DNA from: Nereocystis luetkeana
Lineage: Eukaryota; Sar; Phaeophyceae; Laminariales; Laminariaceae
NCBI GenBank assembly: GCA_031213475.1
Contig: JARUPZ010000001.1
Span: 20,738,933 to 20,802,932 of the forward strand
Length of the DNA: 64,000 bases
Direction of reading: 5' to 3'
Position numbers and translations under genes: made by a program
Shown: positions 28,635 through 62,154 of the stretch, piece after piece
How positions within the stretch are numbered: position 1 is the first letter of the stretch
How the letters are laid out: each line of letters opens with the position of its first letter
The notes under the pieces: model-generated
The model's database searches: none
Told to the model about the DNA's origin: nothing
Seen by the model: the letters and a program-made list of their open reading frames with translations, nothing else

Positions 28635-28639
28635 CCGTG

Positions 28640-36660: not shown

Positions 36661-36662
36661 AG

Positions 36663-36965: not shown

Positions 36966-36991
36966 CCTCTACCCCCCCCCCCCCCCCCCCG
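36966..36991. repeat. C tract
   Basis: About 20 C in a row are followed by GCTACCCCCC. No gene is associated. Confidence 0.85.
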
Positions 36992-39817: not shown

Positions 39818-39858
<41 letters not shown>

Positions 39859-41192: not shown

Positions 41193-41235
<43 letters not shown>

Positions 41236-44200: not shown

Positions 44201-47200
44201 CATGTTAAATTATACATGCTTTGCTGCCCAGTCATAGTATGTCAGTTGGCACGTGCTGCAGACATTACAGATTATCTTTGTGAGGACAGCGAGCACTTAG
44301 AGGTATTTCCCGGGTAGTGCGCGAACGGCATTGTTCGAGAACGTCATTTTTCGGGTGACATATCTATCTGTGGTTGGACGTATCGCGTGAAAACCCTTCT
44401 TCAGAGTCATGTTTCGGGTCTGATATTATTGAGCTCCTCGCGTACGGAGCTCGGCCAATAAGGCGCCTCCCCCCCTGAGGCGGCATTGCTCGCACCCTCG
44501 ACAAAAAGAGCCCCCGACAAAAGTAGTAGCTGCATCCCCTATATATAGCGACATGCGCCTTATCCATGTGTTACGTGTTTGGGTCATACCACGTTTCCTT
44601 ACGTTGCTGCTGTTGGTGACCCAGAAGTATGCCCCGGTTACCATCACGTCGTTCCAAAAGGGCGCAGAGCAGCAGGACAACGCGATCGCTAGAGCTGTGC
44701 AGCGCCAGACGGTTTGGACGGAGCCGACCACGCTGGGGACTCTTCGCAAATGGGAAAACGCCTACTGTAGCAAACGTTCATACAAACCCCCCGAGGCAGT
44801 GGATATGTGAGAGGAGAAACGGGGGGGAGGGAGGGAGGGAGGGAGGGAAGGAGGGAGGGAGGGAGGGAGGGAGGGAGGGAGGGAGGGAGGGAGGGAGGGA
44901 GGGAGGGAGGGAGGGAGGGAGGGAGGGAGGGAGGGAGGGAGGGAGGGAGGGAGGGAGGGGGGGAGGGAGGGAGGGAGGGAGGGAGGGAGGGAGGGAGGGA
45001 GGGAGGGAGGGAGGGAGGGAGGGAGGGAGGGAGGGAGGGAGGGAGGGAGGGAGAGAGCAAGAAAGGGAAGAAGCAAGAGAGGGCGAGGGAGGGTGGGAAC
45101 CAACTGTTGACTGTAAGAGGGTATACTAACACTGCGTTGTGTGATGTAGAGGTTTCGCTGAAATTTACGATAGAAGCGATTTTTTTTATGGTGTCCGATC
45201 TGGTGAGGTTTTGACGATCGAATTTACCTTGTGATCAGAGGCGTTCTACGATAGAGGTTCACCCTAAGCATTCTGAGGCTCCTCACTTAAGGAGCTCCAT
45301 ACCTCACCGGAAACTGACTGCAGCAAAAATCAAAATGCATCGCGGCGAATAATCCCGTGGCCCGAGTCTACAAAACGTTTTTATCGAAGTCAAGATTGGC
45401 ATTCCGACGACTTGGGGTTTAGGAACCCCGTCTTTCGGAAACAAAATAGCGGAAATGTGCTACCCTTTAGCGTAGAACGGGTAGACACTGGATAACTCGA
45501 TAGATAGGTCAAGGCCAACGGCGTGAACGTTGATGCTCGCGTTTCAACTTGAAAGGGACAGACGCGGTATTTGAAACTCACGCAACAAGTCCTACATGAC
45601 ATATATTGGTAGCCCCGGGTTCCATGTACTTCACCCGCTGGTCCCCAAACTCAAACACGCCGCTTACCACTCACCGCTGTGTATCATTGTGAAGAGGGTA
45701 AAATAGCACAGCAAAGCAAATACATACCCAGACCCTCGGTAAAGCCGGCACCACGCAGAGACTACTTGTGGTGACCGTCCACAACACACCAGCCAAGGTA
45801 GCACAAAGGCCGCTGACCGAGCACACACACGGTGCATGCCGCACTTGGAATCGCACCTACTGCTGTGCATCTACAAAAACAAAACTCACGCATGTTGAGC
45901 TCGACACCTCACCCAAAAGCTGACTGCTCTGAAACGGAAAATCGGACGCTTGTTACTACGAGGGGACTATCAATTCCTGGATAAAACGTGTATTTTTCGT
46001 CGGCCCGAGCTATCCAGCTGAGGAGGTACCCACACTTTCGTAGGATTTATCCACGGGATTGTGCGTCGGACGAAAGCCTATTGTTGTCTTGTTCGTCGGA
46101 ATAAAGCCTCGTGTTTGCTCCTTGACCCAGTTAGGACCGCAGTCCCGTTTTGGGGGCAAAATACTCGTAAATTTAGTGGGTTTTCCCCAAAGCGAGACCG
46201 CAGCTCGGAAAGGCTTAACCTCCAAGGGCTTCATGGGGAAAACTTAGTCTTAAAACATGACGATTACAGCTGCGGCCACCGCTTGATGGGGGAGTATTCA
46301 AATTATGTGTCCCAGTTACACTGCAGGAGTCGCGCGGCATGGGGCGCGGCATGGTCCTATCCGTGCCTGCCGGGCGGTTACGCTGATCGTAGGCGGCTGA
46401 GAACATCGAAGGTTTTACTGGCCTGGTCAGCATCTCGACGTCTCGAAGGGGTTACGGAGCGAGCCTCAGAAAAGGGTGTAGGTGCGCACCTATATCGCAG
46501 CATGCGTCATGGCCTGCGTGCGCAACGGGTACTACCGACTCAAAAACTATTGATACTGTCGCTCCAACGATATTGGGTGATAAGCTCTCAGTGCCTTCAA
46601 GGGGCCTCGTCAGTCAAAAACAATAACCTGAACGTTATGCAAGTACGTACCAGGTATTGTCTTGAGACAAGTACGGCAACGAAAACGAAAGAAACACACA
46701 GACAGGTTTGTGGAAGGCCTTGGAGGCGTCCTACGATAGAGGTTCACCCCAACTTGTTTTAGGCTGCTCACTTTAGGAGCTCCATACCTCTCCCGAAAAC
46801 TGACTTCAGCAAAAACAAAATTGCATCCCGATGAATAATCCTATGGCCCAACTATGCAAAACCAAAACTTTTTTCGAAACACGATAGGCATCCTGGCGAT
46901 TTTGGGTTAAGGAACCCCGTCATTCAGAAACAAAATAACGGAAATGTGCTACCTCTCTCGGACAACGCGACCTTGGTAACCCAGGACCCTCCAAAAACAA
47001 TGGCGGATGATCGCTCACACACAAAACCTGCCAGCGTGGCGTGCCTGCGAACGACTGACACGCCTGACGGGTTCTGCCGTAGTTACGACGAAATCGAGGG
47101 ATGGGTGCCGGATGCGCCTGAACGAGACCCCAGTGATCACGATCTCGATCGACAGGCTGGCACACACCTGGACGATCCTAGTGATGACAATCGCGATGGA

Positions 47201-48199
47201 TACGCTGGAGATGGCCCACAGGTTGACGGCCGTGAGCTCCACGAACTTGAACAAGTATATGAAAGGCCCGGCGGTCCTCCGCGAGCTCCAGCAGTTGAGC
47301 ACCATCACAGACATGATGAACTGGCTGAGTACGTAAGCTACCCCGCTATGGGTGAGTTGGAAAGGGCGACACGGGTGTACACGAAGGGGGAGAGGGGGGA
47401 GGCGGGGAGGGGAGAGAGAGAGAGACCGAAGGTTACGCATTGTGAGGCGTTTCATGATAGTGGTTCACCCTGGATTTCCTGAGGCTCCTCACTTGAGGAG
47501 CTCCTTGTAGCTCACCCGAAAATTGACTTCAGCTGGCAAACAACACATTGCATCCCGATGAGTAATCCCACGGCCCAAGTAAGTATACAAAGAAAGTCAG
47601 TTTTAGAAACGAGCTTGACATTCTGACGATTTTGGGTCAAGGAACCCCGTCATTCAGAAAACCAATTCACGGAAACGTGCTACTGTACCTCTCTCGGAGA
47701 ACGCGTCTTGTGTTAGTCTAGGTGAGAGCGGTTGCTTGTTCTAAAATTGTCAAATGGAACCGGGTTCGCCGTAAGGTTATCCGACCCCGTAGCACCGACA
47801 ACCTCACCACCGCCGCTACGGACACCACTCCGTACGTTCCAACTCGGACACCAACCTATGTACCTAACCCCCCAACCACCCCGTCACCGTCGGTGTGCTC
47901 GGAAGCCTGTTAGGACCGCAGTCCAGTTTGGAGGGGAAAACTACTTAGAACTAGAGTAGATTGTCCCTAACACGGGAGTGCAGTCCTAAAAGGGTGAAGC
48001 TACCCTCCCGCCGCCACCACCACCACCACTACCACCACCACCATCACCCCCGCGCCGCACATGCCGCATGCAGGGCACGCACCTACCTGGTATAGTGGAG
48101 AAAGAATATCCGCATGTGCTGTCTCCGAGCGGGGTTGAGCCACGGGTGGAAGACGGACAGGCTGATGCACAGCGCCACCAGCCGGAGAATGTTCACCAT
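38073..48199 (-). CDS. Seven-transmembrane GPCR-like gene, six exons
   Basis: Exons at 48199-48087, 47324-47168, 45856-45728, 41416-41266, 40354-40287 and from 39180 down all have AG/GT borders, and every join is in phase. The joined protein has seven hydrophobic segments: LRLVALCISLSVF, RIFFLHYTSQFIMSVMVL, VNLWAISSVSIAIVI followed by TRIVQ, LAGVLWTVTTSSLCVV, FLTTQAVAGFLMALILVF, YFVLTILGTCVYLY and VHVIADTFVLFSAF. Charged loops follow segments 1, 3, 5 and 7, as in G-protein-coupled receptors. The tail is Ser/Asn-rich and ends EVSTV, a possible PDZ-type end. Receptor class, ligand and N-terminal exons are unknown. One in-frame TAG at 38900-38898 interrupts the tail. Introns of about 0.76, 1.3, 4.3, 0.9 and 1.1 kb carry A, C, D and G elements and simple repeats. 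The 7TM call is my inference from hydrophobicity and phase. Confidence 0.65.
38340..38610. repeat. TTGCTG-type repeat coding an Asn/Ser tract
   Basis: Interrupted TTG and CTG triplets on the plus strand read as AAC/AGC on the minus strand. They encode the Asn/Ser-rich tail of the 7TM gene. Hydrophobic plus-strand open frames here are shadows. Confidence 0.85.
39205..39290. repeat. GGT repeat and G tract
   Basis: About twelve GGT triplets at 39210-39243 are followed by GGGGGT units and a G run at 39273-39288. The whole tract lies in the 7TM intron just upstream of the last exon acceptor; on the minus strand it is C-rich. Confidence 0.85.
39370..39820 (+). repeat. Family G repeat, copy followed by G37
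   Basis: CTTGCACCAAGCGCGAAGC, GTGTGGATGACAGCGTGG, AGTGACAGCGATAGG and TAGCTCACGTAGTGATGG match 41700-42187 in order. The element ends at GGAGTAAGGA and a run of 37 G follows at once. It lies in the 7TM intron between TM6 and TM7 exons. Confidence 0.75.
39821..39857. repeat. Poly-G tract, 37 bases
   Basis: The uninterrupted run directly follows the end of a family G copy. It is a strong G-quadruplex candidate on the plus strand. Confidence 0.95.
39975..40265. repeat. CCA/CAC-rich simple sequence
   Basis: Irregular CACCAA, CACCAC and CCACCA units cover about 290 bp inside a 7TM intron. Long His/Pro or Val/Gly open frames across it are by-products. Confidence 0.85.
40287..40354 (-). CDS. 7TM gene exon, TM6
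   Basis: The acceptor GCCTGGCAG and donor GTATGC bound 68 bp. Two bases complete a Tyr codon begun in the previous exon. Then FVLTILGTCVYLYNGAVLF and VDE end in phase zero. Exon borders, length and phase all fit. Confidence 0.65.
40748..41004 (-). mobile_element. Family A element
   Basis: The left end is GACGCATCTTACGACAAATG and the right end CCCCTATCCCAGAACGCC. The middle has CCAACCTCGTTTCGAAA and CTCACACGAGGAGCCTC. It is intronic in the 7TM gene. Confidence 0.87.
41196..41233. repeat. Poly-C tract, 38 bases
   Basis: On the minus strand this is G38 starting 32 bases after the donor of the TM5 exon. It may act as a G-rich intronic element or simply be slippage. Confidence 0.95.
41266..41416 (-). 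CDS. 7TM gene exon, TM5
   Basis: The acceptor CCGTTTGCAG and donor GTGAGG are both strong. The exon is 151 bp: EGFSRWISLSFLTTQAVAG, FLMALILVFNVTGPRRASLM and VCCNTSKRVKIC, plus one base of a Tyr codon completed by the TM6 exon. Confidence 0.75.
41700..42187 (+). repeat. Family G repeat, copy followed by G20
   Basis: It is partner of 39370-39820, with GCACCAAGCGCGAAGCGCCG, GTGGATGATGGC, AGAGACAGCAACGGG and TAGCTCACGTAGTGAGCGG. It ends TTTAATAAG and is followed by a run of 20 G. It lies in the long 7TM intron. Confidence 0.75.
42188..42207. repeat. Poly-G tract, 20 bases
   Basis: The uninterrupted run follows directly on the second family G copy. Confidence 0.93.
42302..42550 (+). mobile_element. 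Family A element
   Basis: The copy starts GCGTTCTACGATTAGAGG, with CTTGAGGAGCCC, and ends ACCTCTATCGTAGAAG. It is followed within 50 bp by an oppositely oriented copy. Confidence 0.93.
42599..42843 (-). mobile_element. Family A element
   Basis: The left end is GATGCGTTCTACGATAGAGG and the right end CCCCTATCGTAGAACGC. The B insertion site is empty (GAGGTTGCACATTTCCG). Confidence 0.94.
43118..43335 (+). repeat. Family D repeat, copy 2
   Basis: ACTTGGAAGAAATTCGTTCG, CCACCCGACCGGCACTTGTA and CAGAAGCCTTTGGC match 15000-15215 in the same order. It is in the long 7TM intron. Confidence 0.8.
43722..43808. repeat. AT-rich dinucleotide repeat
   Basis: TATATATA and GATATATA units cover about 85 bp with several self-complementary stretches. 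Confidence 0.9.
43830..43935. mobile_element. Decayed family C MITE
   Basis: CTTTTAGAGGGCCGCAGTAG, GAGGACAAGCCACTCGAG and CCCAAAACGGG are recognisable. No TTAA remains at either end. Confidence 0.65.
44821..45054. repeat. GGGA microsatellite, about 235 bp
   Basis: About 57 nearly perfect GGGA units with one early GGAA change and one all-G unit near 44960. It encodes only a by-product EGGR repeat (plus) or PPSL repeat (minus). It lies in the long 7TM intron. Confidence 0.97.
45239..45479 (+). mobile_element. Family A element
   Basis: The left end GCGTTCTACGATAGAGGTTC and the stem CTTAAGGAGCTCCATACC are near consensus. The right end is altered (CCCTTTAGCGTAGAACG). Confidence 0.94.
45728..45856 (-). 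CDS. 7TM gene exon, TM4
   Basis: An acceptor ending GCACAGCAGTAG follows a T-rich tract; the donor is GTATGT. The exon is 129 bp, 43 codons, phase zero at both ends. It encodes VRFQVRHAPCVCSVSG then LCATLAGVLWTVTTSSLCVV and PALPRVW. The basic start would be the loop after TM3. Confidence 0.6.
46126..46218. mobile_element. Family C MITE
   Basis: TTAGGACCGCAGTCCCG and TTTTGGGGGC form the left arm. The right arm is altered (CCAAAGCGAGACCGCAGC) and ends at TTAA. It is intronic in the 7TM gene. Confidence 0.85.
46290..46420 (+). repeat. Family H repeat, copy 1
   Basis: CCAGTTACACTGC, GAGTCGCGCGGC, GCATGGTCCTATCC and TGCCGGGCGGT resemble 56895-57000 in order. The function is unknown. Confidence 0.5.
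46648..46656. other. TACCAGGTA motif, leftmost copy
   Basis: This is the first TACCWGGTA found when reading from the left. At least 17 further loci follow up to 62142. It lies in a 7TM intron. Confidence 0.8.
46725..46970 (+). mobile_element. Family A element
   Basis: The left end is GCGTCCTACGATAGAGGTTC and the right end ACCTCTCTCGGACAACGCG. The interior is well kept. It is intronic in the 7TM gene. Confidence 0.92.
47168..47324 (-). CDS. 7TM gene exon, TM2 end and TM3
   Basis: The acceptor is CGTACTCAG and the donor GTGTGT. The exon is 157 bp: one base completes a Ser codon, then 52 codons. It encodes QFIMSVMVLNCWSSRRTAG, PFIYLFKFVELTAVNLWA and ISSVSIAIVITRIVQ. Confidence 0.75.
47444..47705 (+). 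mobile_element. Family A element
   Basis: The left end is GCGTTTCATGATAGTGG and the right end CCTCTCTCGGAGAACGCG. Against other copies it has a doubled AAGT at 47577-47584 and a TA-CTG-TA gain in GTGCTACTGTACC. Confidence 0.9.
47909..47998. mobile_element. Family C MITE
   Basis: TTAGGACCGCAGTCCAG and ACTACTTAGAA form the left side. GGGAGTGCAGTCCTAAAAGG is the right arm. The flanking TTAA is lost. Confidence 0.82.
48087..48199 (-). CDS. 7TM gene exon, TM1 and TM2 start
   Basis: The acceptor is GGAACAG and the donor GTAGGT. The exon is 113 bp. It encodes MVNILRLVALCISLSVF, HPWLNPARRQHMRIFF and LHYT, plus two bases completed to Ser by the next exon. The first codon is ATG directly after AG, so it could also be the true start. 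A TACCAGGTA motif (48084-48092) forms the donor itself. Confidence 0.65.
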
Positions 48200-48341
48200 C
48201 TGTTCCGAACCGAAACAAAAACGGCGCGCCATCATCACAGGCAGCGAAGGTTTCTAATATCACTATCCAAGAGGCGTGCAACGAGAGGGGACAGGGGTAG
48301 CCTGTATTGGCCAAAAATATTTATGGCTGACCGGGCTCCTT

Positions 48342-48443
48342 ATCAACCCCTTTAGTGCCGCAGTCCCGTTTCGGAGACAAACTGACTTGGAATTTGACTG
48401 GATTTCCCCCTAAACGGGACTGACTGCAGTTCTAAAGGGTTAA
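48342..48443. mobile_element. Family C MITE
   Basis: CAACCCCTTTAGTGCCGCAG starts the copy and TTAA ends it. The right arm has ACTG doubled at 48419-48426. Confidence 0.9.
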
Positions 48444-48484
48444 CCCAATACTTTGCCAAAAAGTGATTTCTAACCCATTTAAGC

Positions 48485-48580
48485 TATTACGAGGGACCAC
48501 ATTAAATAGGACCTACGGTACATGCCAAAAACTATATGCTTCGCTATTTTTACCAACGATATTTGGTTCTATTTACTGTA
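48485..48580 (+). mobile_element. Family B MITE, right end lost
   Basis: TATTACGAGGGACCACATTA is the left end. The copy can be followed to ATTTGGTTCTATTTACTG, where the terminal GGTCCCCCGTAA is missing. Confidence 0.85.
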
Positions 48581-49059
48581 ATACATGGTACGACGGTGTG
48601 TGTGTGGGATACCAGGGGCACTAAACTGCTACCTGGTATTATAGTAGAAACGACGGCATGAGAAGAAAAAACAATCTACGAGGGTACAGCCGGCAGGTCT
48701 CATGATATGCGATGCATTGAACCCCCTGTACGGCGGTGCAGTTCGTGTATCACATCATTATTATTATTATTATTATGCTTGCCATCCGACGATGTGTAGT
48801 TTTTTTTTTTTGCTCATCCCATTTATTATCTTCGCCCATCTTCTTCTCTCTCTCCTTCCAACTCGTAACTCAGATCCGGGGTCACATAACAGGCTCTTCC
48901 CGCTACGGTACGTGCCTTCATTTTTATCGCGAGAAGATTTCAGCCTTTTCTTCCCTCGTCGACTCGCATCGAATTGTGCCTACCCACGCTGCAAGGCGAT
49001 CTCAACAATTATTGAATCCTTTTTATTTATATTTTTGCAAATAAATATTGTCAAAGTCC

Positions 49060-49136
49060 GACCCACCTGGGGCTCGAACCCAGGACTCAAACCCAAGTAG
49101 AATTCGAGGTTAACAACTTGAACCACCGGGGCGACC
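49060..49136 (-). tRNA. tRNA-like pseudogene or SINE head
   Basis: On the minus strand a D-arm (GGTT CAAGTTGTT AACC), a B box (GGTTCGAGCCC) and a T stem CTGGG/CCCAG are present. An anticodon stem CTCGA/TTGGG around ATTCTAC would place TCT (Arg) as anticodon. The acceptor stem does not pair and the variable loop is long, so a working tRNA is unlikely. Confidence 0.45.
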
Positions 49137-50375
49137 GGCGTGGAATTGTAGTGTGCTAACAACAGACTAACCGTAAGTAAGTGAAGAAGTCTCCGGGACA
49201 AAAGCGCGGCAGTATCATACGACAAATCATCTTTGTCGAATGACGTACTACAAACCGACCACCCGGTGTATGATTATCTCGGTTTTGGAGACGAATTGGG
49301 CACGTTGGCTTATTTGGTTGTCTTTGAAGTATGTTACCTGCCGGAAAGCCCACGAAAAAATAGTTAGTTTGGGTAGAAAAAGCGACCAGCATTGCGTTTT
49401 TAAGATTTTTACCCGCGTTTTCTTGGGTTGGTTGGAAATGGGCTACTTTTTTCTGTGGGTTGGTTAGCAAACGGAGCGACGTCCGGTTCACCGGCTTTTT
49501 TTGGCCGATCAGCTCTTCTTCATGATCGTCGGTTTAGAAGCGAAGCATGTTTTCAACCCAACCAAATCGGATTATCGCAAACACCGTCTGTCATGAATAA
49601 TAGGCATCCAACGAATGAATAGAGGCCCTACATGAACATGTACCGTACCTGGTACTGAAATAATGGTAGGTAATGCGTAGGGAAAACAAATAAATGTACC
49701 AGGTAATACGGGCAGTCCAGGGAAGAAAAGGCTGAACTCTTCTTGCGATAAAAAGGACGCAGGCGCGCACCGCAGGCGGGGGGGGGGCGGGGGGGGGTGC
49801 CTTTAATGTGTCCCCGGATCTGTTATACGAAATGTGTAGAGGAGAAGCAGGGCAGTAGTAGACAAATATTTTGTTTTGGATCTGTGGTACTCTCTTCTTG
49901 CTACTACAGTTAGTTGCGGATGCGATGGCCTTAAAAAAAAAGCGAGCACACCTTTTTTTTATAATCACTTCACTTTCCAGCTAGACCCGAGGGGGGGGGT
50001 TATCCTCAGCGATCTTCTGGGCAAGCCGTGGTCGCAGGTAGGTGTCATCGCTTCTGCCTCCCGGTACGTGCCTTCCTTTTTCCCGCGCACACCGGTAGGG
50101 TTTAGCATCCCCACTGCTCGCCGATTTTCATCGAAGAATTGTTGACACAACTCACGATCTCGCGCTTTCCGCCAATCAATCAAATATCATGCAAGAAAAA
50201 AAAAACCCTTTAGGAGTATGCATTCGTTGAGACTCCAACCCACAAAAATGATCTTTGTAGGCACGCGGACCACCTACCAAGCCACCGGGGGACGCTTGCG
50301 AGCAGACAAGAGTACCCGCTGCTACTGTATATATATTCAACCTGGGCGGAAATGTAACGACCGTTTAGAACATAC

Positions 50376-50564
50376 TATTACGGTGGGCCATAGTTAATAC
50401 CAGGTAGGACCTATGGTTTACATAAAAACCTACTAGGCATATATTTAACCATTCCTTGTAGGACCTATGGTATACATAAAAACCTACCTGGTATGTATTT
50501 AACCATTTTTTTACCCACAGTATTTGGTCCTACCAGGTATTAACTATGGTCCCCCGTAATATTA
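50376..50564 (+). mobile_element. Family B MITE with duplication and 7-bp gains
   Basis: Both ends are recognisable (TTACGGTGGGCCATAG and ACTATGGTCCCCCGTAA). The inner segment GGACCTATGGT..CATAAAAACCTA is present twice. TACCAGGTA or TACCTGGTA sits at 50398, 50485 and 50531, exactly where other B copies have a single TA. At the equivalent site of the first duplicate, CTAGGCA looks like a mutated version. Confidence 0.9.
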
Positions 50565-51464
50565 GAAAACCCGTCACTTACTAATGGTGTTTTTGAGCTC
50601 AGACGTGTACTACCCCCCCCCGTTCCGTGCCGCGCGGCTCATATGTACCTGGTACCTGGCACACAATGGTTTGCTTTGTTAAGAAGAGAGTGGGCGCAAA
50701 AACCAACAGCAACACGAGTTGGTCCCGTGCATATCCTCCGTCTTTAGGATGTACTGGGTTCTTCTACAGGACGCGTGCTACATACATGCGAAATATTATT
50801 ATTGATGAGTTGATTGCGGTTGTTGTGGTTGCAAGTGGTTGCTATATATATATATATTTACTATATATATATACCAGGTATATAGATATATATATTTATT
50901 TGCCTTCTGACAATGTGCAGGGCGTTATTCATTCAGAATGAAAGAGCTGACATAATAATTCATCGAATACCACTAACTTCATCGAACCAATTCTCCTTCC
51001 CTGCGTGTACTCACTTGAATATGCACCCCCACCATTTACCGAGATTTTTTTCGTACTATGTATCTATACGCCGTGCTTCCTACTCCGCATCTACATTCTA
51101 CCCCCACGTCATGGGAAGTAGCCCTCCCTCCTCTTCCCATTAACAGCGTACGATATATATATGGGTGGGGGTGGTTGGCATTAACTATATAATGGGGATG
51201 GATGTATATTGATTTGTTTAGGCCATTGGTAGATGCTTCTTAGGGAGTACTCAAGAAAGTGAGTGGTCATTTTTTTTGTGGATGAGGTAGAGGGATGTTG
51301 GATGTGGTAGTATTCACGGGACCACATCGGTTTCGTTTGACGTATGATACTGCTTCAGCTAGCTGTGTTTTTGTTCTCAAGAGCTACTTACTTTCTGTTC
51401 TTTAGTCTGTCTTGGAACAACAGTACACATTGCATTGTCGGATGGATGGCAAGTATAGAGGGGT

Positions 51465-51600
51465 TTATTATTATTTCTCTTGCCATCCGACGATGTGCAA
51501 CATACTCTTCAACATGGATCACTCATAACTTTCCCGAAAGAAGAAAACCTCGGAAACAAAAGGAAACCCTACTCGTAGCACTTTCTATCAAAATAAACCA
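51465..51600 (-). mobile_element. Retroposon family I, 3' end
   Basis: ATTATTATTTCTCTTGCCAT (tail side) is followed by CACTCATAACTTTCCCG and GAAAACCTCGGAAACAAAAG. It is truncated at the right. Confidence 0.85.
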
Positions 51601-51850
51601 TCTATTATGGCTGCCAGCACGCCTGAACTCTGGAACTCCACAATATACTGCTGGATCTTGATTTATTTAGGCGGCTACTTTTTGATCATTGTCTAGAGAT
51701 CCGTGAGGTCAAGCAGGGAGCCTCAAAACAAGTACAGTTTTTTTACCGTTTTTCGTAGCGTGCACCCAAGACATTATACCTGGCATCTATCTCGGGAGTT
51801 GGTAGTGTAACATCTACCCCACCCGCGCGGACATGTATCGACCTTATTGT

Positions 51851-52187
51851 GAGGCGTTCTACGATAAACGTTCACCCTGATTTTTCTGAGGCTCCCCACT
51901 TGAGGAGCTCCATACCTAACTTGAACCAGAAACCTGACTACAGCAACAATCAAATTGCATCCGACGAATAATTCCATGGCTCAAATATACCAAAACGTCA
52001 GTTTTCGCTGTAAGAATGGCATCCCGACGATTTTGGGTTAACCCCTTCAGAACCGCAGTCCCGTTTTGGTGACAAAGTACTAGAAATTTGAGTGGTTCGT
52101 CCCCAAAACGGGGCTGCGGTTCTAAAAGGGTTAAGAAACCCCGTCATTCAGAAAAAAAAGCGGAAATGTGCTACCTCTATGGTAGCA
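51851..52187 (+). mobile_element. Family A element carrying a family C copy
   Basis: The left end is GCGTTCTACGATAAACG and the right end ACCTCTATGGTAGCAC. The A sequence TTTTGGGTTAAG is split at TTAA by a complete C copy, after which AAACCCCGTCATTCAG continues. Confidence 0.95.
52038..52134. mobile_element. Family C MITE nested in A
   Basis: TTAA occurs at both ends where uninterrupted A copies have one TTAA. The arms are AGAACCGCAGTCCCG and CGGGGCTGCGGTTCT. This fixes TTAA as target duplication. Confidence 0.96.
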
Positions 52188-52445
52188 CTGGTCTTGTGTG
52201 AACATTCACATTATGCTTAACCCTACGGCCCTTAAGGCTTCCTGAAGGTAGTGGCATGTATATTTGACAGCACAACCTTGAACGCGGAGCGAAGCACACA
52301 ATAATACGAGTATATAATGGCAAGATGCACAGAAAAGAGACTGATTTTTCGCTTGTGTTTTCTTCATTTTTTTTCATCCAGTTTCGGTTCCCCTTGTGCG
52401 GTCCTCTTCTCATTGCGAGTACTTCGGGAAATATTCATGATGAGT

Positions 52446-52536
52446 GGAACCCCAGCCCCGTTTTGGGGACAAACTGCTTGTGACTAGAGTGCTTTGTCCC
52501 CACCTACCTATGGGACTGCGGTGCTAAAAGGGTTAA
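52446..52536. mobile_element. Truncated family C MITE
   Basis: CCCCGTTTTGGGGACAAAC and GGGACTGCGGTGCTAAAAGG remain; TTAA is present at the right only. Confidence 0.8.
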
Positions 52537-52576
52537 AGCTACTCTACTAAAACAGTCGAATACTCTACTGCTGTAC

Positions 52577-52689
52577 TACGGGGGGGGCATAGTCAATAGG
52601 ACCTATGGTATATATACATGAAAACCTATATATTTAACCACTTTTACTAACAATATTTGGTCCTATTAGCTAAGGTCCCCCGTAATAAT
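52577..52689 (+). mobile_element. Family B MITE
   Basis: CTACGGGGGGGGCATAGTC is the left end and AGCTAAGGTCCCCCGTAA the right end. The interior is near consensus with a short TATA expansion. Confidence 0.92.
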
Positions 52690-52929
52690 TATTATAGTAG
52701 TCAAATACGTTTCCCTGTTTCTTGCTTTCACCTGTATTTATTTTCTTGTATTTTATTATAAGCGATCAATGTTGAAGCTTATGCCTACACATTGTCGCAC
52801 GACAAGCACGTATGCATAACGTAGGCGAAAGGTTTTCCACTCGTTTCAGGTCGTGAATAATCCCGCTCCTCCTGCTAGTCGAGCCAGAGAAGAGACACCA
52901 TGTTAAGCGGGGGGGGGGGGGGGGGTCAG

Positions 52930-53181
52930 AGGCGTTCTACGATAGAGGTTCACCCTAATTTTTCTGAGGCTCCTCACTTTAGGAGCTCCATACCTCACCC
53001 GAAAAATCACTTCAGCAAAAACAAAACTGCATCCCGATGAATAATCCCATGGCCCAAGTAAACAAATAAAACATTTTTCGAAACAATATTGACACTCCTC
53101 TGACGATCATGGGTTAAGGAACCCCGTCATTCAGGAAAAAAATAACGGAAATAGATGTGGTATCTCTATCGTGGCACGCGT
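52930..53181 (+). mobile_element. Family A element
   Basis: It is near consensus at the left (GCGTTCTACGATAGAGGTTC). The right end is expanded by AGATGTGGT before ATCTCTATCGTGGCACGCG. It follows a run of 15 G. Confidence 0.93.
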
Positions 53182-53459
53182 CGTCACGATGTATGTGCTA
53201 CCTCTATTTTGCAGTACGACACTCACTCGCAGGAAAACATCCCATCTCAAGAGCGCAGTTCTACAGAACTTAGCAGACTGATCTTCTCGACAAAACGAGG
53301 GAGAAGTGCGAACAATCAACACAACAACCGTCAGGAGAACCGTCAGGAGAACCGTCGTCGTCCTGAGTGTTACAGTGGTAAAGCAATGTCGACACGAGGC
53401 GCGTGCAAAGACGTGGAGGGTACGAATCCCCCGATTTATCTGGAGGTCCTCGTGTGGCC

Positions 53460-53556
53460 TTGATCCTTTTAGAACCTCATTTCCGTTTGGGGGGCAAACC
53501 AGTCAAAGTCTAAGTAGTTTGTCCCCAAAATGGGACTGCGGTTCTAAAACGGTTAA
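53460..53556. mobile_element. Family C MITE
   Basis: The left arm is altered (AGAACCTCATTTCCG). The right arm ATGGGACTGCGGTTCTAAAA is intact and ends at TTAA. Confidence 0.88.
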
Positions 53557-53704
53557 GGAGCAGCTCTGCACCAACCGTAAAACTCACCCACAGCCTGATC
53601 TTGATAAAAAAATCTGAGCTGAAGGAGCAACCCGAGATAAACAACTCTAAAACGTATTAACAGTAGTACGTACATCACGAACAAAACCTACCAGGTAGTT
53701 TGTT

Positions 53705-53820
53705 TGTTTTTTTCCTTTTTTTGTTTCCGAGGTTTTCTTCTTTCGGGAAAGTTATGAGTGATCAACGTTGAAGATCATGCTGCACATTGTCGGATGGCAA
53801 GGGAAATAATAATAATGTAT
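53705..53820 (+). mobile_element. Retroposon family I, 3' end
   Basis: GAGGTTTTCTTCTTTCGGG, GATCATGCTGCACATTGTCG and GATGGCAAGGG lead into AAATAATAATAATG, a TAA-type tail. Confidence 0.85.
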
Positions 53821-53880
53821 AATAGTAAAATACTACAATGCATGGTGGCATGCCGACGATATTGGGGGTTGCCAGCGACT

Positions 53881-53994
53881 TTAACCCTTTTAGAACAACT
53901 GCAGTCTCGTTTTGGGGACAATTAATTGGGGATAAATTACTTGGAATGTGAGTGCCTTGTCCCCAAAACGGGACTGGAGTTCTAAAGGGGTTAA
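53881..53994. mobile_element. Family C MITE
   Basis: TTAA stands at both ends. The middle is enlarged by a partial repeat of the TTGGGGA segment. Confidence 0.92.
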
Positions 53995-54109
53995 GGAGAC
54001 CGGCCAGCCAAAACAAAAATCCCAGGGCGTGGTCAGCGACACACGTTAAGGTGCGGAGAACAACCATCACAATTTTTATGAGTTTCCCCACAACTTGACC
54101 TTGAGGACA

Positions 54110-54379
54110 CGCGTTCTACGATAGACCTATTAATAACACATTTTCCGCTGATGATGTTTTTTTTCTGAATGACGAGGCTTCCTGACCCCAAAATCGTCGG
54201 AATGAATGCCAATCAATGCTGTTAGTTTCGAAAAAACGATTTTGTGTGTAGTTGGGCCATGGGATTATTCATCGGGATGTGATTTTATTTTTTGCTGAAG
54301 CCAGTTTTCGGGTGAGGTATGGAGCCCCTTCCGTGAGGAGCCTCGGAAACAGTACGATGAACCTCTATCGGAGAACGCC
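54110..54379 (-). mobile_element. Family A element with a TTAA footprint
   Basis: The left end is GCGTTCTACGATAGACC. At 54128-54135, TA-TTAA-TA replaces the single TA of uninterrupted copies. The right end is CCTCTATCGGAGAACGCC. AATG is doubled at 54201-54208. Confidence 0.93.
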
Positions 54380-54387
54380 TTAGTTAG

Positions 54388-54607
54388 GAGCTTTATAGCT
54401 CTATACCTCACCCCCCCCCCCCAGAAAAAAAATGTCTTTTTAGAAAAAAACGAAAGTGCAACTCTTGGGACATCCCATGACCTCCGGGTTTACAAAAATA
54501 TAGCATTGCGGAAATAGAAAATGCCCTTCAGGCGACGTTGGGTTAAGGAGCCGTCCCGTCGTTCAGAAAAAAAAAAAACAAACCAGAAAGTGCTACCCCT
54601 ACCGTAG
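54388..54607 (+). mobile_element. Diverged family A element
   Basis: TTAGGAGC, CTATACCTCACC, GGTTAAGGAGCCGTCCCGTC and GTGCTACCCCTACCGTAG are in the right order. The left TIR is missing. Confidence 0.7.
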
Positions 54608-54969
54608 TACAGAAGCAGCGCAGACACGTGCCAAGGTAGGGGTAGCGGCTGTTCTTTCCGATATTATTCCCAGCTTAACCTTGAGGAGCTCCATACCCCA
54701 CCCGAAAAAGGATTTCGAGAAACGCTAAGAGCGCTACCCGGGAAACTACGTATCTCGCGACGTATATTAATATTAGTGGGCATATCGTGAGTCATTTAGG
54801 AAAGCACTAATAATGGTATCTTGGGAATATTGGGTTGAGGATTGCGGTGAGTCAGCAAGAAAACAAAATGCGGAGGAATTTCTACCCCTTGGAACGTGGC
54901 ACGCGTCAGCACTCGACGTGCCCCCCTTGACGCGGGGGAAATCGGCGGGGAAATTGATCTCGGGGGTGG

Positions 54970-55315
54970 TGCGCTATCTTATCGCCCTAGTTTGGTATAT
55001 TATCACCCTAGTGTTATATCTTATCACCCTACTAATAATAGTGTGCTATCTTGTCACCCCATAATAATAGTGTGCTATCTTAACCCCTTTAGCACCGCAC
55101 TCCCATATGTGGGGACAAATCAGTCAAATTTCAAATAGTTTGTCCCCAAAACGGGACTGCGGTTCTAAAGGGGTTAACACCCTATTATTATAGTGTGCTA
55201 TCTCATCACCCTAGTAGTGTGCTATCTTGTAAGACCCTGGTGTGTTATCTTACCACCCTAGTGTGCTATCTTATAAGACCCTAGTGTGCTATCTTATCAC
55301 CCTAGTGTGATGCGC
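54970..55315. repeat. 21-bp minisatellite cut by family C
   Basis: GTGTGCTATCTTATCACCCTA units recur about a dozen times, some with TAAGACCC instead of ATCACCC and some with AATAATA spacers. A family C copy interrupts the array. Confidence 0.9.
55080..55177. mobile_element. Family C MITE inside a minisatellite
   Basis: TTAA stands at both ends within GCTATCTTAA. The right arm AACGGGACTGCGGTTCTAAA is intact. Confidence 0.95.
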
Positions 55316-55552
55316 TCTGGGAGGAAATATATAAGTGGATGTCTCGGTCAGTAGGAAGTAAAGTGAATGCTTCGTCACAGTTAGTTCGCTCGAATCGCGC
55401 TCAACTATCCTGAAGCCCGATGCACAGCAGCTGTTGCCGACCAAAACGCCACATACATTCTGCAACCGAACCAGGAAAACGATGTGCAGCCTCGCGCACA
55501 CACACGGCGTTGAAAATATCACCGGCCCGATGCGTCGTGGTGTTCCTTCGCT

Positions 55553-55668
55553 ATTATTGCGGGGGGCCATAGTAAATAGGACCTAATACTGGTAGTAAAA
55601 ATAGTCAAATGTATAGGTTTTTGTACACACCATAGGTCCCATTAACTATGGTCTCCCGTAATAATAGG
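55553..55668 (-). mobile_element. Family B MITE
   Basis: TTGCGGGGGGCCATAGTAAA is the left end and TTAACTATGGTCTCCCGTAA the right end. The interior is in reverse sense. Confidence 0.92.
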
Positions 55669-55861
55669 AGATGCTTGCAAAGTTAATAATAGTCGGTTGC
55701 TCAAAAAACACAACCCTCAAGACGGTCGCCAATAATAGCATTGTATAGCCCACAACAGTTTGTTACAACGTGAAGAAGGTATGAAGATCAATAGTAGGAG
55801 GTAGGTGCTTACATTCCCGATCGTGGTGATTGGTGATCCACGCGGGTAAATAATATATCTA

Positions 55862-55935
55862 TCATTGTGCTTGCCATCCGGCAGTCAGTGTACAGCATGA
55901 CATATATATGTATGTGTGGCCTTCAACGTTGATCA
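55862..55935 (-). mobile_element. Retroposon family I, diverged 3' end
   Basis: GCTTGCCATCCGGCAG, GTACAGCATGA and CTTCAACGTTGATCAC match the 3' end with an AT-rich insertion. Confidence 0.65.
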
Positions 55936-56025
55936 CACCCAAAGCATTATGCTGTTACATAGTTCGTGTCGTAATAAATGTATCAACGCTACTCGTGCAG
56001 TATACGAGGCTATGAAGGCTGCTAC

Positions 56026-56136
56026 TACGGGGAACCCTATTAAATAGGACCCACGGTACACACAAACACCTCGATCGTTCGTTATTTTTACAAACAATAC
56101 TTGGTTCTATTTACTTTGGTCCTCTATTAATACTAC
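56026..56136 (+). mobile_element. Family B MITE
   Basis: CTACGGGGAACCCTATTAAA is the left end and TTTACTTTGGTCCTCTATTA a decayed right end. Confidence 0.85.
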
Positions 56137-56310
56137 TACTACTACTTACTCTGCCAGCAAGCCTATAAGTCAGGCGGCATTTTCGAGCTGGCTCGGGATT
56201 GTAAGCCGAGACGCGGAGTAAACTCTGCACCAGAACTAAATAGAAAAGTCGCCATATCATGTACTATATATACCTTCTTCTACAGAAGAACAGAAGAAAG
56301 AAGGCCTACT

Positions 56311-56418
56311 ATTACGGGGGACCATAGCTAATAGGACCTACGGTACACACAAAGACCTATATATTTACCTTTTTTCAGTGACAATATTTGATCCTGTTTA
56401 CTAAGGTCCCCCGTAATA
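56311..56418 (+). mobile_element. Family B MITE
   Basis: TTACGGGGGACCATAGCTAA to TTACTAAGGTCCCCCGTAA, with TA on each side. A TACCAGGTA lies 20 bp further right. Confidence 0.94.
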
Positions 56419-56894
56419 TTAATAATACCAAATAAATACCAGGTAAAAAGACAGCAGTATACCTTCTTCTACAGTTTAGTACAGAAGAAGTTTTCTACCG
56501 GCAAGTAACAGGTAAAAAATGGAAATATTTTCGACAACAGACAACATGGAAGGTGAGGGAACTTAGGCCGAGAACGGTTCGCCCATCCATCCGTATGATC
56601 GCCCCGCGTCATAAAAAAAACAAAACCGCGTACCGCAGTTAGTAGTAGGGGGATGTCTTGGGTAAAAATGGCACAGCACATACATACATGCAGGCAGGCT
56701 TACTTCAGAATGAAGAAGGAAATAAAACCTAACGCGACAGCAGGAGGGGCTCAATTTTTGGCGGACGCAAAATAAAATAAAAAGTTGGATCACCTTTCAC
56801 GGGAACCGCGAGGGGACGCTTGGCAGCAAAGAGTAACGATGCCAGCACTAACTAGCCACTGACTGCCTGAATGGGGGATATCATACATACGCAT

Positions 56895-57000
56895 TGATTT
56901 TGGTGCCCAAGTTACAATGCGTGGAGTCTTGCGGCCCAGGCGCGACATGAGCCTATCCTGCCCGGTGCTGCCCGGCGCTCACACTGTCCGTGGACACAGC
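56895..57000 (+). repeat. Family H repeat, copy 2
   Basis: CCAAGTTACAATGCG, GAGTCTTGCGGC, GAGCCTATCCTGCC and TGCCCGGCGCT resemble 46290-46420. Confidence 0.5.
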
Positions 57001-57142
57001 TCATACACAGCGCCAAAATAAATGATACCAATATTTTGACCTCGATTTCCTGGTCCAAAACGGGGTAAAGATAAAACTTGCCTCAGCGGCCACCACAGCG
57101 CTGCACTAAATCCTGTGTGTAAAACATTAAAAAAAATATGAT

Positions 57143-57263
57143 ATTACGGGGGACCATAGTTAATAGGACCAAATATTGTTAGTCAAAATAAATGGTTAAA
57201 TATATAGAGGTTTTTTATGTATACCATAGGTAGGTCCTATGAACTATGACCCCCCGTAATAAT
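57143..57263 (-). mobile_element. Family B MITE
   Basis: Both ends are near consensus (TTACGGGGGACCATAGTTAA and GAACTATGACCCCCCGTAA). It has several small tandem gains, including TAGG doubled at 57227-57234. Confidence 0.95.
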
Positions 57264-57472
57264 AGTATATGCTCAAGGGTCAGCCAAGGGTGCTGTCACA
57301 ACAAGATTAATTAGAAGGCTCGGTTTCTCGGAGTGCGCACGAGTAGACGCTTCTTGTTGGCAGGGCCCGTACTGATGTACCACATACATACTACCGTGTT
57401 CCGATATCGTTTCGTACTTGGTTTGACATCCGAAAAAGTGCGTCGAGTGGTCATTCCGACAACGTTGTCTTT

Positions 57473-57584
57473 TTCGGGGAACCATAGCAAATATGACCAA
57501 ATATTGTTAGTAAAAATAGGCGAATATAAAGGGTGTTGTGTGTAGCGTAGGTCCTATTTATTTACAGTGGTCCCCCGTGATAGG
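57473..57584 (-). mobile_element. Family B MITE
   Basis: TTTCGGGGAACCATAGCAAA is the left end and TTACAGTGGTCCCCCGTGA the right end. The interior is diverged. Confidence 0.9.
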
Positions 57585-58187
57585 CACCTGGTGCCTATGG
57601 CGTATTTCCGGCGGCGTGCGGCTTAGCAATGCGACTTATGTTCAGAAGTAAGTGCACAAAGGACACGAAAAAAAACTGATCATTGTTTTGGGCAAAACAT
57701 TTCGGGAAATCCCCACCCGGAATGGGTGTTGCACTACGTACTATCAATACACCCTTTCTTGACCTCCACATGCCACGTACTCTATCCGCCCTGCGACCGA
57801 AGCTCGCCACGTGTACTGCTAGCAGGTGCAGGGGGGTGGAAGTGGCAGAATGAGCGTAGCATAAAATGACAGAGCTGTCGGGGGGGCGTAGGGGCCTGCC
57901 GGCAATTGATCATTTGATGCCACACCTACTCCTAGTTCCACTACCTCTATACAACTAACTATTCATACCACTATACTACTACTGATGCGATGAAATGCTA
58001 CTACAACTACTAGTACTGCTCCTACTACTACTCTATCTACTCTGTTACTGCTTCAATCACTACTACTTATTATGATATCTCGTCATGGTGTACTGTTAGT
58101 ATACATAATTGCACTACTACTATACTGCTACCGGGCTTACTCCAATCACGTTTCATGTCTACTAATAGATGCTACTATTTTAATAGA

Positions 58188-58442
58188 CACGTTCTACGAT
58201 AGAGGTGGCACATTTATTTCCTATAAAATATTTTCTGACTAACGGGGCTCCTTAACCCAGAATCGTCGGAATGAATGCCAATCTTGTTTCGAAGACTGAG
58301 ATTATCGTTTGCTTGGGATATATATGAGATTATTCATCGGGATGCAACTTGATGTTTGCTGAAGCCTGGTTTCGAGTGAGTTATGGAGCTCCTAACGCGA
58401 GGAGCCTCAGAAAAGTCAGGGTGAATCTGTGTCGTAGAACGC
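58188..58442 (-). mobile_element. Family A element
   Basis: The left end is GACACGTTCTACGATAGAGG and the right end TCTGTGTCGTAGAACGCC. AATG is doubled at 58270-58277, as in the 54.1-kb copy. Confidence 0.93.
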
Positions 58443-58695
58443 CTCACTATTATACTACTACTACTACCACCACCGTAACTACCACTCTACTACTGCTACT
58501 ACTACTACTGCTATCACTAACCGTAGTACTAACTATTAGACTGCAACTATTTTAAGCTACTTCTTCTGCTACTACTTCTGCCACTACTACTACTACTACT
58601 ACGACTACTATTACTACTACAGTAACTGCTACTACTACTACTACTACTATTAATACTACTTCTACTACTACTATTACTACTACTACTACTCCTAC
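58443..58695. repeat. ACT/CTA triplet repeat
   Basis: Interrupted CTACTA, TACTAC and ATTACT triplets cover about 250 bp right next to a family A copy. A less regular stretch of the same triplets is at 57940-58075. Confidence 0.9.
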
Positions 58696-59689
58696 TACCA
58701 CGAATATATTGCGTAGCAGCTGCTGTTGTTGTAGTTGCATCGTGCGACTCAGCCCGGGAAAAGCCACGATCGTTTGTATACCCACAATAACACCCTAATC
58801 TTGCTTACACTGTACATAAAAGGCCGCTGTAATTAGTGGCGGCGTGCTAACATACTATATAATAGGCGTAGAGCGTTTGGGGGCAAAACTACACCCTAAC
58901 CCTAAGTATATATATAGATAATTTATACCTGGTATATGCTTCGAAGTATATGAAAAAACAAAAAAACAGGTGTGAGATGGAAGATTTCGTTGAAACTCAT
59001 CTTCACTAGCGGTGCGCGATACTTCGATCGCGCGTACTTCTTCTGTACTACAGTGTGCGTACAGTTTTTTAAAGGCCTCATGCAGGAAACGTAGTCCTCG
59101 TATGAGGAAGCCTACACCTGAAGCTGCAGGTTGTCTGGCGGGTGGGGGTCTTCGGACGGAGGAACTGCCCAAAACTAAAGCATACCACTTTGGCCCTAAA
59201 TATAAGGTTCATTGAAACATTAATATGAATATAAAAGGATCCTTATTTTTACACCACAATCGGTACCTGGTACCTAATATTACCAATATGTACCTAAACA
59301 CAAGGGACTTTTAAACTAAAAATACAAACTTCGAAACTGCTTATTATAATTTAGGGCAGAGTGATACTCGTTTTTTTAAAAATAATTGAAAAGTCGTTTT
59401 TTTTTAGATGTAGACCTTAGGCCATGAGAGCTGCCCAGCATCGGGTCAGCGTGTAGGCGTACACGTTTTTTTTCCCCGATGATAGCTGTGTTCGGGTGAC
59501 GTGCAGAGCCTGCCTTACGCAAGTAAGTGAGGGTCCTCGAATGAATCGCCTACCCGCACCCCTCTGTCGTGACGGTGGGCATGCCTACCTAACTTCTGCC
59601 TATTATGACGGGGTTGCTCATCTAAAGAACAACAACTAACTAACTGCTTACCCAAAAGTATTATTGCTACTTAAATATCGTTATTATTA

Positions 59690-59745
59690 ATATTATTATT
59701 ATGCTTGCCATCCGGCAATGTTATGTGTAGTGTTGTTATCATAAA
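59690..59745 (-). mobile_element. Retroposon family I, short 3' end
   Basis: ATTATTATTATGCTTGCCAT, CCGGCAATGTTATGTGTAG show the tail and the first 30 bp only. Confidence 0.6.
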
Positions 59746-59905
59746 CGACTATAATAATGACAGAAAGTAAGCGAAGAACAAACGAGAACAAAAGCGCGGC
59801 AGTATCCTACGACAAATTTTAAATCAGAACTGATGTGACGCTCATGAAGACTACTACAACCAACATCCCTCCATCTCGTCCACCAAAAAACGACCACTCC
59901 CCCCC

Positions 59906-60002
59906 TTAACCCCTTTAGAACCGCTGTCCCGTTTGGTGACAAAACTACTTGAAATTTGACTGGATTGTCCCCAGAACGGGACTGCGGTTCTAAAAGGGTT
60001 AA
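59906..60002. mobile_element. Family C MITE
   Basis: TTAA stands at both ends. The arms are AGAACCGCTGTCCCG and CGGGACTGCGGTTCT. Confidence 0.95.
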
Positions 60003-60059
60003 GCACCCCCGAAGAAGCATTTATCTACCAAAAACCCGCTGTCCATCAAAATGGCTGGT

Positions 60060-60250
60060 TTATTAATATTATTATTATTTCTCTTGCCATCCGGCAATGT
60101 GCAGCATGATCTTCAACATTGATCACTCATAACTTTCCCGGAAGAAGAAAACCTTGGGAACAAAAGGAAACCCACATACATGCGCCAAGTCTACCTACCT
60201 TCTGTGCCACGACTTTTGGCTTGTCTACTCCATTCATTCGCTGCTTTGCT
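60060..60250 (-). mobile_element. Retroposon family I, 3' region
   Basis: ATTATTATTATTTCTCTTGC (tail side), CACTCATAACTTTCCCG, CCAAGTCTACCTACC and GCTTGTCTACTCC are present. Further scraps of the same end appear at 60250-60280 and near 60350. Confidence 0.85.
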
Positions 60251-60557
60251 TGCCATCCTCCGACAAAGTAAGTGTAGTCTTGTTCTAAAAAAGGACTTAC
60301 TTGCAGAAAGTGAAGAACTTTCCAGAGAAAACTGTTATTTTGTTGTGTTTGCCCTCCGACGAAGCGCAGCGTTTGTTCGCCAACCGCAAACGATGAAACA
60401 CGAGAGTCAAGGCGAGAGTGAAGGATCGGCCTTTCCCAAATAAATCGACTGACGAACAAGAGGCCTCCAAAACCAAAACCACTCTTCTTGCAGCTCGTCC
60501 ACCAAACAACAGCGACTGAACGCTGACCCCCCCCCCTTCCTCTAGCTCGTTAACCAA

Positions 60558-60626
60558 TACCAGGTATATATATATATAAATATAATATATACCAGGTACC
60601 AGGTATTAATATATATATACATACCT

Positions 60627-60660
<34 letters not shown>
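60558..60660. repeat. AT repeat with four TACCWGGTA units
   Basis: TACCAGGTA at 60558, a double TACCAGGTACCAGGTA at 60590-60605 and TACCTGGTA at 60622 lie in a TATATA tract that continues to 60660. Confidence 0.9.
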
Positions 60661-60662
<2 letters not shown>

Positions 60663-60802
60663 AACTACTATATTTTCTCGCAACGTACCTAAGGCCAGAA
60701 AGCTCGTCGGATTGACCTTTTAGTTTTTCTCTCAAGTCAGGCCAGAGCAACGCCGCCGTATAGGGCTGGTGCCTTATTATTTTCAATACCTTACCTGAAC
60801 GA

Positions 60803-60892
60803 TTTTAGGACCGCAGTCCCGTTTTGGGGGTAAACTACTTGGAAATGGAGTGGATTGTCCTCCAAAAAGGACCGCGGTTCTAAAAGGTTTAA
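60803..60892. mobile_element. Family C MITE, first of a pair
   Basis: TTTTAGGACCGCAGTCCCG is the left arm and AAGGACCGCGGTTCTAAAAG the right arm. TTAA remains at the right. Confidence 0.88.
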
Positions 60893-60989
60893 TAACCCTT
60901 TTAGAACCGCAGTCCCGTTTTGGGGGCAAACCACCCAAATTTCAAGTAGTTTGTAGTCAAAACGGGACTGCGGCCCTAAACGGGTTCAA
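60893..60989. mobile_element. Family C MITE, second of a pair
   Basis: AACCCTTTTAGAACCGCAG starts directly after the first copy. The right arm ends CCCTAAACGGGTTCAAG, so the right TTAA is lost. Confidence 0.9.
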
Positions 60990-61060
60990 GGAATGTTTTT
61001 TGGCGCAGCGCGACCAGGATTTAAATGCGCTACTACTCCTACAACCAATAAGGCACTACT

Positions 61061-61167
61061 ATTACGGGGGACCATAGTTAACAGGATCTATGGTATACAT
61101 AAAAACCCATATATTTAACCATTTTTACTAACAATATTTGGTCCTATTAACTATGGTCCCCCGTAAT
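61061..61167 (+). mobile_element. Family B MITE
   Basis: It is close to consensus: TTACGGGGGACCATAGTTAA to AACTATGGTCCCCCGTAA. The left flank TA is present. Confidence 0.96.
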
Positions 61168-61679
61168 TCACTAAAAGTGCTATTATTATACCTGGGAAGT
61201 ACTACTACTATTATATGGGAAAGCGGTGGTTGCTCAAACTTGAGGAGGAACTCACCAACCAGAAAATTGCCTCAGAAGGCAAAAAGTTCAATCACAACCA
61301 ACCGTGGGATGAGTCGACAATCGTTGGAGCAATGACCTGGTAACCTCCTCTCACTCACGTGGGGGGAACCTCAGAGTAACCCCGGTGCACCCCAACAGCA
61401 GAAATCCAAGATTGTTATTATTAACAGCGTGAGTGCATGCTAGGTACGGTACGGTTTAGCACCTCTTTTTTTTTAGACTTCTCGCGTGACTGCTGTCAGC
61501 TATGTTCTTCATCGAAATAGTGTATTTCAGGGGTGGATTATACCCCTCGGCCTACAAAACTCGACGGTGTGCGCGCTCGGGGGCAGGTTTTGTAGGAAGG
61601 CCATGCTAAGACAGACATCACTCTACTAAGAGTACTGTGCGCAAGAGATACAGATTGAAAAGGATATCGCGAATAGTAA

Positions 61680-61790
61680 TAGTATTATTTCGCTTACCAT
61701 CCGACACTGTGCAGCATGAGCTTCGATGTTGATCACTCAAAGCTTTCCTGAAAGAAGAAGAGAAATCCCCCGGAGTCAAAGGAATCTTAT
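61680..61790 (-). mobile_element. Retroposon family I, 3' end
   Basis: AGTATTATTTCGCTTACCAT, CTGTGCAGCATGAGCTTC and GTTGATCACTCAAAGC are recognisable, diverged from other copies. Confidence 0.75.
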
Positions 61791-62154
61791 GCTTTATCTA
61801 CGATACTCCATTTATTTGTTTTTTTGGCTTTGCTCCCTCCTCCATCTCACTCAGTGTGTGCTCTTTACGTCGAAAAAAATAATCCTAGGCCGCATCCAAG
61901 CTCCATCGAGTATTATTCTGTATTTTTACTGGTTTTAAATGAACCTGAAACACCAGTATACAGAGCAGTGTAGATGATGTATACGTGGTGTGTTGTGGAT
62001 TAAGTTCGTCAACAACTACTGACTTACTTGAGCTACCGAACTGCAATAATATACTGCAGTATTTGCCAAAGATGGGTATATCATATTTTGTAACACGGGT
62101 GTGTGATGCATGCAATACATGGTGATGTTTATTTACCAGGTATTATTGATAATA

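Follow-up and report, generated by a model that had tools for sequence, protein, structure and literature searches.

Units of the form TACCWGGTA are insertions, each of which adds CCWGG and one TA, and they are found at many separate sites of the genome from which the window, the 64,000-base stretch of DNA analysed here (C1:20738933-20802932), was taken. We put at roughly 0.55 the probability that these units are excision footprints left by a TA-targeting cut-and-paste transposon whose ends begin with CCWGG. The preliminary description, which had reported clustered seven-base gains in one part of the window, points to a real and strong phenomenon on a much larger scale than it described. It was right to read the units as insertions; its reading of them as products of excision is the best on offer, still short of proof; and the clustering has turned out to be incidental to the window.

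Abundance of the unit in the window and in the genome

A count over the whole assembly (465,085,209 bases, 1,987 contigs) has revealed 182,395 copies of TACCWGGTA, or one in about every 2.5 kb, whereas the reversed pattern used as control occurs 1,744 times in the same 465 Mb. This count had been set beforehand as the check able to refute the preliminary description, and the excess obtained was roughly 100-fold. The window itself contains 19 matches (the double unit at 60590 being counted as two), with 0.34 expected and a maximum of 3 across 100 shuffles; chance or base composition was rejected as the source on both the shuffles and the reversed control. Among the 16 words of the form TA-xyWyx-TA, the one with CCWGG was present 124 times in 264 kb and the next-ranked 19 times. 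No comparable excess was found for TACCGGTA (7 copies, with 6, 1 and 0 in the controls) or for TACCSGGTA (5 copies, with 2, 0 and 2 in the controls).

All 19 window matches lie within 46,648-62,142, every coordinate first listed for them was correct, and the reported absence of the motif before 46648 was also confirmed. Because there are 182,395 copies genome-wide, the cluster is a mere edge of a gap. Clustering is therefore local to the window and not a property of the phenomenon, and the unusual part of the window is its motif-free first 46.6 kb (1..46647), where the mean density of the genome predicts about 18 units. Local hopping as the origin of the cluster was dropped, the motif being genome-wide. 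Twenty genome samples of ten kb contained 0-13 copies each; 11 of the 20 had been picked at already listed TACCWGGTA matches, and the six that were placed arbitrarily contained 19 copies in 60 kb.

The first unit of the window is a TACCAGGTA at 46648..46656, and motif matching has also located TACCAGGTA at 49697..49705, 53689..53697, 56437..56445 (about 20 bp beyond a family B copy, as placed by family B alignment) and 62134..62142, the last unit of the window. Copies of TACCTGGTA were matched at 48084..48092, 48630..48638 (with a partial TACCAGG 20 bp upstream, at 48610), 49646..49654, 58926..58934 and 59264..59272. From the sequence, a TACCAGGTA breaks a TA microsatellite at 50872..50880, another lies in TA-rich surroundings at 60558..60566, and a TACCTGGTA is found inside a TA microsatellite at 60622..60630. 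The match at 50646..50661 is TACCTGGTACCTGGCA, an intact unit with an adjacent unit carrying one mismatch, and that at 60590..60605 is the double unit TACCAGGTACCAGGTA. The remaining units belong to a family B repeat described below.

Two repeat families of cut-and-paste-like form, A and B, are sparser per kb in window positions 1-46647. Family A is a TTAA-bounded palindromic repeat with TTAACCC ends, piggyBac-like in form, and gave 9 matches in the motif-free 46.6 kb and 20 in 15.6 kb; family B, a TA-bounded palindrome of about 109 bp, gave 14 and 15, respectively, in counts where palindromic copies can match on both strands. One family A copy is nested within a family C copy near 52038-52134. 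The window looks eukaryotic in character, with scarce and short reading frames, and the host is a photosynthetic eukaryote because a profile search counted exon by exon gave at least 68 matches to the light-harvesting domain in the assembly; it is probably an alga, and genome size and composition would suit a brown one. A tRNA search of the window run in bacterial mode found none, no Rfam family reached the gathering threshold there, and ten of its reading frames matched no Pfam family at E 0.1. The window repeat patterns had no match in a viral-contig collection or in a genome-contig collection, from which records of this same genome were possibly excluded. The double unit matched 9 viral contigs at a single place apiece, which was taken as chance.

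Insertion, target choice and re-use of TA sites

The family B copy at about 50376..50564 (plus strand), a TA-bounded palindromic repeat defined by alignment of copies, contains three units, TACCAGGTA at 50398..50406, TACCTGGTA at 50485..50493 and TACCAGGTA at 50531..50539. Alignment with paralogues has confirmed that these three gains, reported at the outset, are real, with other family B copies of the window showing a single TA at these places (GTTAATAGGACC at the first and GGTCCTATTAAC at the third). The same copy includes a tandem duplication of 54 bp, and an altered unit, TACTAGGCA (50431..50439), was recognised from the array sequence in its other half.

A strict paralogue test, in which gaps near the junction were disallowed, was carried out on 134 sites, and a clean empty copy with a single TA was found for 26 of the 49 that had a junction-spanning paralogue. 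The same comparison gave clean empty copies for 0 of 15 sites with the control motif TAGWCTA, 1 of 15 with TAGGWCCTA, 0 of 15 with ATGWCAT and 2 of 14 with TATWATA. The gain thus consists of CCWGG plus a duplicated TA, as had been proposed, and an ancestral motif lost from other copies was rejected on these figures. An earlier and looser test of 109 sites yielded 42 with a junction paralogue, of which 28 had an empty, 25 a filled and 12 both kinds of copy. At L019 5426 and 6030 the empty, one-unit and two-unit states are all present at the same site, and the double unit at L012 3771 is missing from a paralogue that is 98% identical. Where aligned paralogues are 80% identical or more, this unit, counted by rotation and strand, is the largest class of seven-base gains (10 of 19), and double units make up 2 of the 4 fourteen-base gains. 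A non-redundant set of 38 alignments with identity of 88% or more, spanning 1,296 substitutions in 28,540 aligned bases, contained 11 TA-duplicating gains, namely CCWGG three times, TTAA twice, C twice and four others once apiece. Insertion at TA with duplication of the TA is a trait of Tc1/mariner-pogo footprints, and these units display it.

Base preferences around 88 single non-duplicate sites, with both sides pooled and the average TA of the same samples as baseline, define a palindromic target that has TA at its centre and extends to 7 bp. The departures were strongest at +7 (A/T, p=3e-13) and +6 (T, p=8e-8); T was also favoured at +1 (p=7e-6), and there were weaker departures at +2 and +4. 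When 91 single sites were oriented by their centre base, the left flank showed no difference from the right one, with no p below 0.05. At one family B site the centre, in the orientation listed, was A in 24 and T in 76 of the 100 scars listed out of 824 (counted by eye), a skew that may reflect shared ancestry of the copies. Symmetry about the duplicated dinucleotide is what a dimeric transposase gives, and transposases normally duplicate TA within a symmetric target some 16 bp long. A palindromic AT-rich preference around TA, present here symmetrically to 7 bp at the 88 sites, is reported for ZB (PMC7913693). A sequencing or assembly artefact might be suspected from so uniform and short a sequence, but it is extremely improbable in view of the decay of the copies, the symmetric target and the differences between paralogues, and units are found in samples from contigs C1, C2 and C31 and, among the matches listed, on C1-C4.

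Re-use of a site, proposed originally from the double unit of the window, is evident both in the empty, single and double states of one site and in the genome-wide count of 15,917 double units, against 2 in the control and about 1,250 expected from TA frequency (about 13-fold). Gaps between neighbours of exactly 7 bp amount to 11.5% in the samples versus 0.9% under random TA choice. By orientation, 9,539 doubles are direct, 4,522 convergent and 1,856 divergent, the direct ones being about 3,161 more than a simple model predicts in which second events are independent. Given this surplus, a minority of doubles may stem from growth of the 7-bp unit by tandem duplication or as a microsatellite. 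As the main source such slippage is very improbable and was discarded for single units as well as for doubles in opposite orientation, since single units lie at TA sites whose paralogues lack a unit that could be copied and 6,378 of the 15,917 doubles are in opposite orientation, which slippage does not make. The difference between convergent (4,522) and divergent (1,856) doubles would need a 2.4-fold preference at the third base from TA, where single sites show a weak one; it weakens the interpretation of the units as footprints, and so does the re-use of scars though their own bases are not favoured by the target preference. At two loci (L011:3358 and L031:1194) TACCWGG faces CCWGGTA with 15 and 16 bases between them and no adjoining TA, which is more than we would expect by chance.

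Proposed excision, possible direct insertion and the search for a parent element

If the units are footprints, a TA-targeting cut-and-paste DNA transposon working like the Tc1/mariner-pogo (ITm) elements would enter at TA and later depart. The element ends would start with 5'-CCAGG or CCTGG, and their first five bases would stay behind on each flank as a 3' overhang produced by a staggered cut. Both overhangs would be complementary save at the centre (A:A or T:T), so that they could anneal, and conversion of the central mismatch to A or T followed by ligation would produce TA-CCWGG-TA. Support for this sequence of events comes from the clean empty paralogues (26 of 49), the three states at one site and the share of the unit among seven-base gains (10 of 19), as well as from the palindromic target, the prominence of CCWGG alone among the 16 words, the copies decayed by one mismatch and the presence of elements of the wider group (L041 and L039). 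It is weakened because no parent element was found and because reported footprints are shorter and less uniform than this core.

The search for a parent element covered about 264-305 kb of the 465 Mb, a sample that a family of about a thousand copies or fewer could escape. In 305 kb, no TA-flanked inverted pairs starting with CCWGG were found save in microsatellite, multi-unit or large-palindrome context, and neither inverted repeats at seven loci (three of them picked for already seen paired ends) nor long insertions between paralogues revealed such an element. Of the proposal that these may be Tc1/mariner excision footprints, the transposase-like choice of TA agrees with the symmetric target; a CCW-ended transposon at TA, which was to be looked for, was not found in the sampled sequence. 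TACCWGG without a following TA was counted 93 times against 65 in the control (264 kb, both strands), which was judged to be about the yield of point decay. PF13358 had no match in the genome and PF01359 had none either, nor in any control genome; DDE_1 had at least 28 genome matches, none of them linked to CCWGG ends. At the family B site with 824 scars there were 73 other CCWGG starts versus 35 in the control, and no occupied site was seen among the 8 of these 73 that were read, for about 200 bases apiece: family B sequence resumes immediately in 6, and 2 lie outside family B. The variants read at these starts were CCAGGG + TA in four family B copies, an extra CCAG in one case and an extra CCA in another. 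The eight-base CCAGGG + TA variant belongs to copies at L055, L057, L058 and L059 (contigs C4, C7, C8 and C10), which apparently form one spreading subfamily.

Large inverted duplications were observed at 4 of the 7 inverted-repeat loci tested (L015:1-3269, L017:4554-6124, L018:4573-9847 and L041:339-3499), with arms 86-99% alike and a total span of at most about 5 kb. At L020:2-2731 a single open frame encodes a NADAR domain and, after it, a reverse transcriptase domain.

Two elements show that this genome has, or once had, transposases of the wider group. A Tigger/pogo-like element at L041 3552-6163 is flanked by TA, has ends CAGTGGGGGGCCC matching at 20 of 20 bases and encodes DDE_1 and Tc5-type domains; a TACCWGGTA is situated 13 bp past its right end. 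A pogo-like element at L039 235-2422 is also flanked by TA, has ends CAGTACCGGCC and shows a DDE_1 match with one stop. Both resemble the proposed element in TA target duplication, DDE_1 transposase domain and inverted repeats, but their ends start with CAG instead of CC, for which the predicted scar is TACWGTA. This word occurs 162,074 times genome-wide against 54,742 in the control, a three-fold excess with little sign of recent insertion. A clean empty paralogue was found at 2 of the 33 TACWGTA sites having a paralogue, so the word is not claimed as a footprint class and the model is unconfirmed by it.

The scar of Sleeping Beauty, TAC(A/T)GTA, arises from self-pairing of overhangs with a central mismatch, and it resembles the present unit in a palindromic insert with an A/T centre between duplicated TA. 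Sleeping Beauty is reported to leave three-base 3' overhangs at the donor site and footprints identical to these overhangs (PMC7827188); the difference is that the insert has three bases there and five here, where no source element was found and the units are far more numerous and uniform. Reported footprints are of 2-4 bp for Tc1/mariner (PMC7913693), 0-4 bp for a pogo element (PMC9976928) and 1-4 bp for Stowaway/Osmar5, with mixed kinds at a single site (PMC1925063). Stowaway/Osmar5 also leaves short end fragments between TA duplications and can re-insert at a scarred site (PMC1925063), two points of likeness with the present units, which differ in having a single symmetric five-base core in place of several kinds of 1-4 bp. 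In rice, 8 of 94 excisions left the duplicated target alone and the rest showed deletions or filler, as reported (PMC4423477). A fixed five-base product at such a scale is beyond the reported footprint range, and with their five-base core the units are not filed as Tc1/mariner-pogo footprints but are regarded merely as working like them. In open-licence literature, TACCAGGTA or TACCTGGTA as whole words gave no match, and no comparable genome-wide scar was found in titles and abstract openings.

Because the product exceeds that range, a direct short insertion was kept as a possible, though rather unlikely, origin. In this alternative a break made at TA by a TA-specific nuclease or a domesticated transposase would be healed by fixed or templated addition of CCWGG, no resident element being involved. 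The samples without a parent element, the dominance of one product and the fact that scars are struck about 13 times more often than a random TA, though scar bases are not favoured by the target preference, all speak in its favour; but a fixed five-base addition needs a template, which nothing seen here supplies, and duplicating TA within a symmetric target some 16 bp long is typical of a transposase. We regard it as doubtful that a previously undescribed and near error-free process, involving no conventional transposon, has over a long span of evolution written a fixed seven-base unit at TA in at least 180,000 copies and favours its own products.

Age of the units and significance

When up to one mismatch was allowed, 367,383 copies of TACCWGGTA were counted genome-wide against 66,255 in the control; one-mismatch copies alone were 184,988 against 64,511, beside the 182,395 exact ones. 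These figures suggest a long activity with roughly 400,000 events. A model with a single age for all units would give a mean divergence near 7%, and one with a constant rate would extend over about 0.22 substitutions per site with about 404,000 events, both models counting every excess one-mismatch copy as a decayed unit. Units of the window are possibly younger, since it contains 6 one-mismatch copies versus 3.9 expected. The implied event rate is 0.4% of the substitution rate, of the same order as the three gains per 1,296 substitutions in the paralogue alignments, and one event per roughly 250-430 substitutions would be modest for a DNA transposon.

The scarcity of one-mismatch copies in the window, together with the palindrome and the very high copy number, could also be explained by recognition sites, for instance of a DNA-binding protein, that had many origins and are maintained by selection. 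This explanation is quite improbable, because the units arrive as exact seven-base gains at TA inside repeats and because one-mismatch copies genome-wide, before background subtraction, are about as many as the exact ones.

Together the units contribute about 1.3 Mb of inserted sequence (182,395 x 7), and standard repeat annotation would probably miss them. Should they not be footprints, a widespread mutational process has escaped notice. If they are footprints, the genome holds a countable record of hundreds of thousands of excision events, from which excision rate, target choice and repair outcome would be measurable from sequence alone, and the five-base core would imply a wider range of cut staggers than is known, together with very accurate repair.
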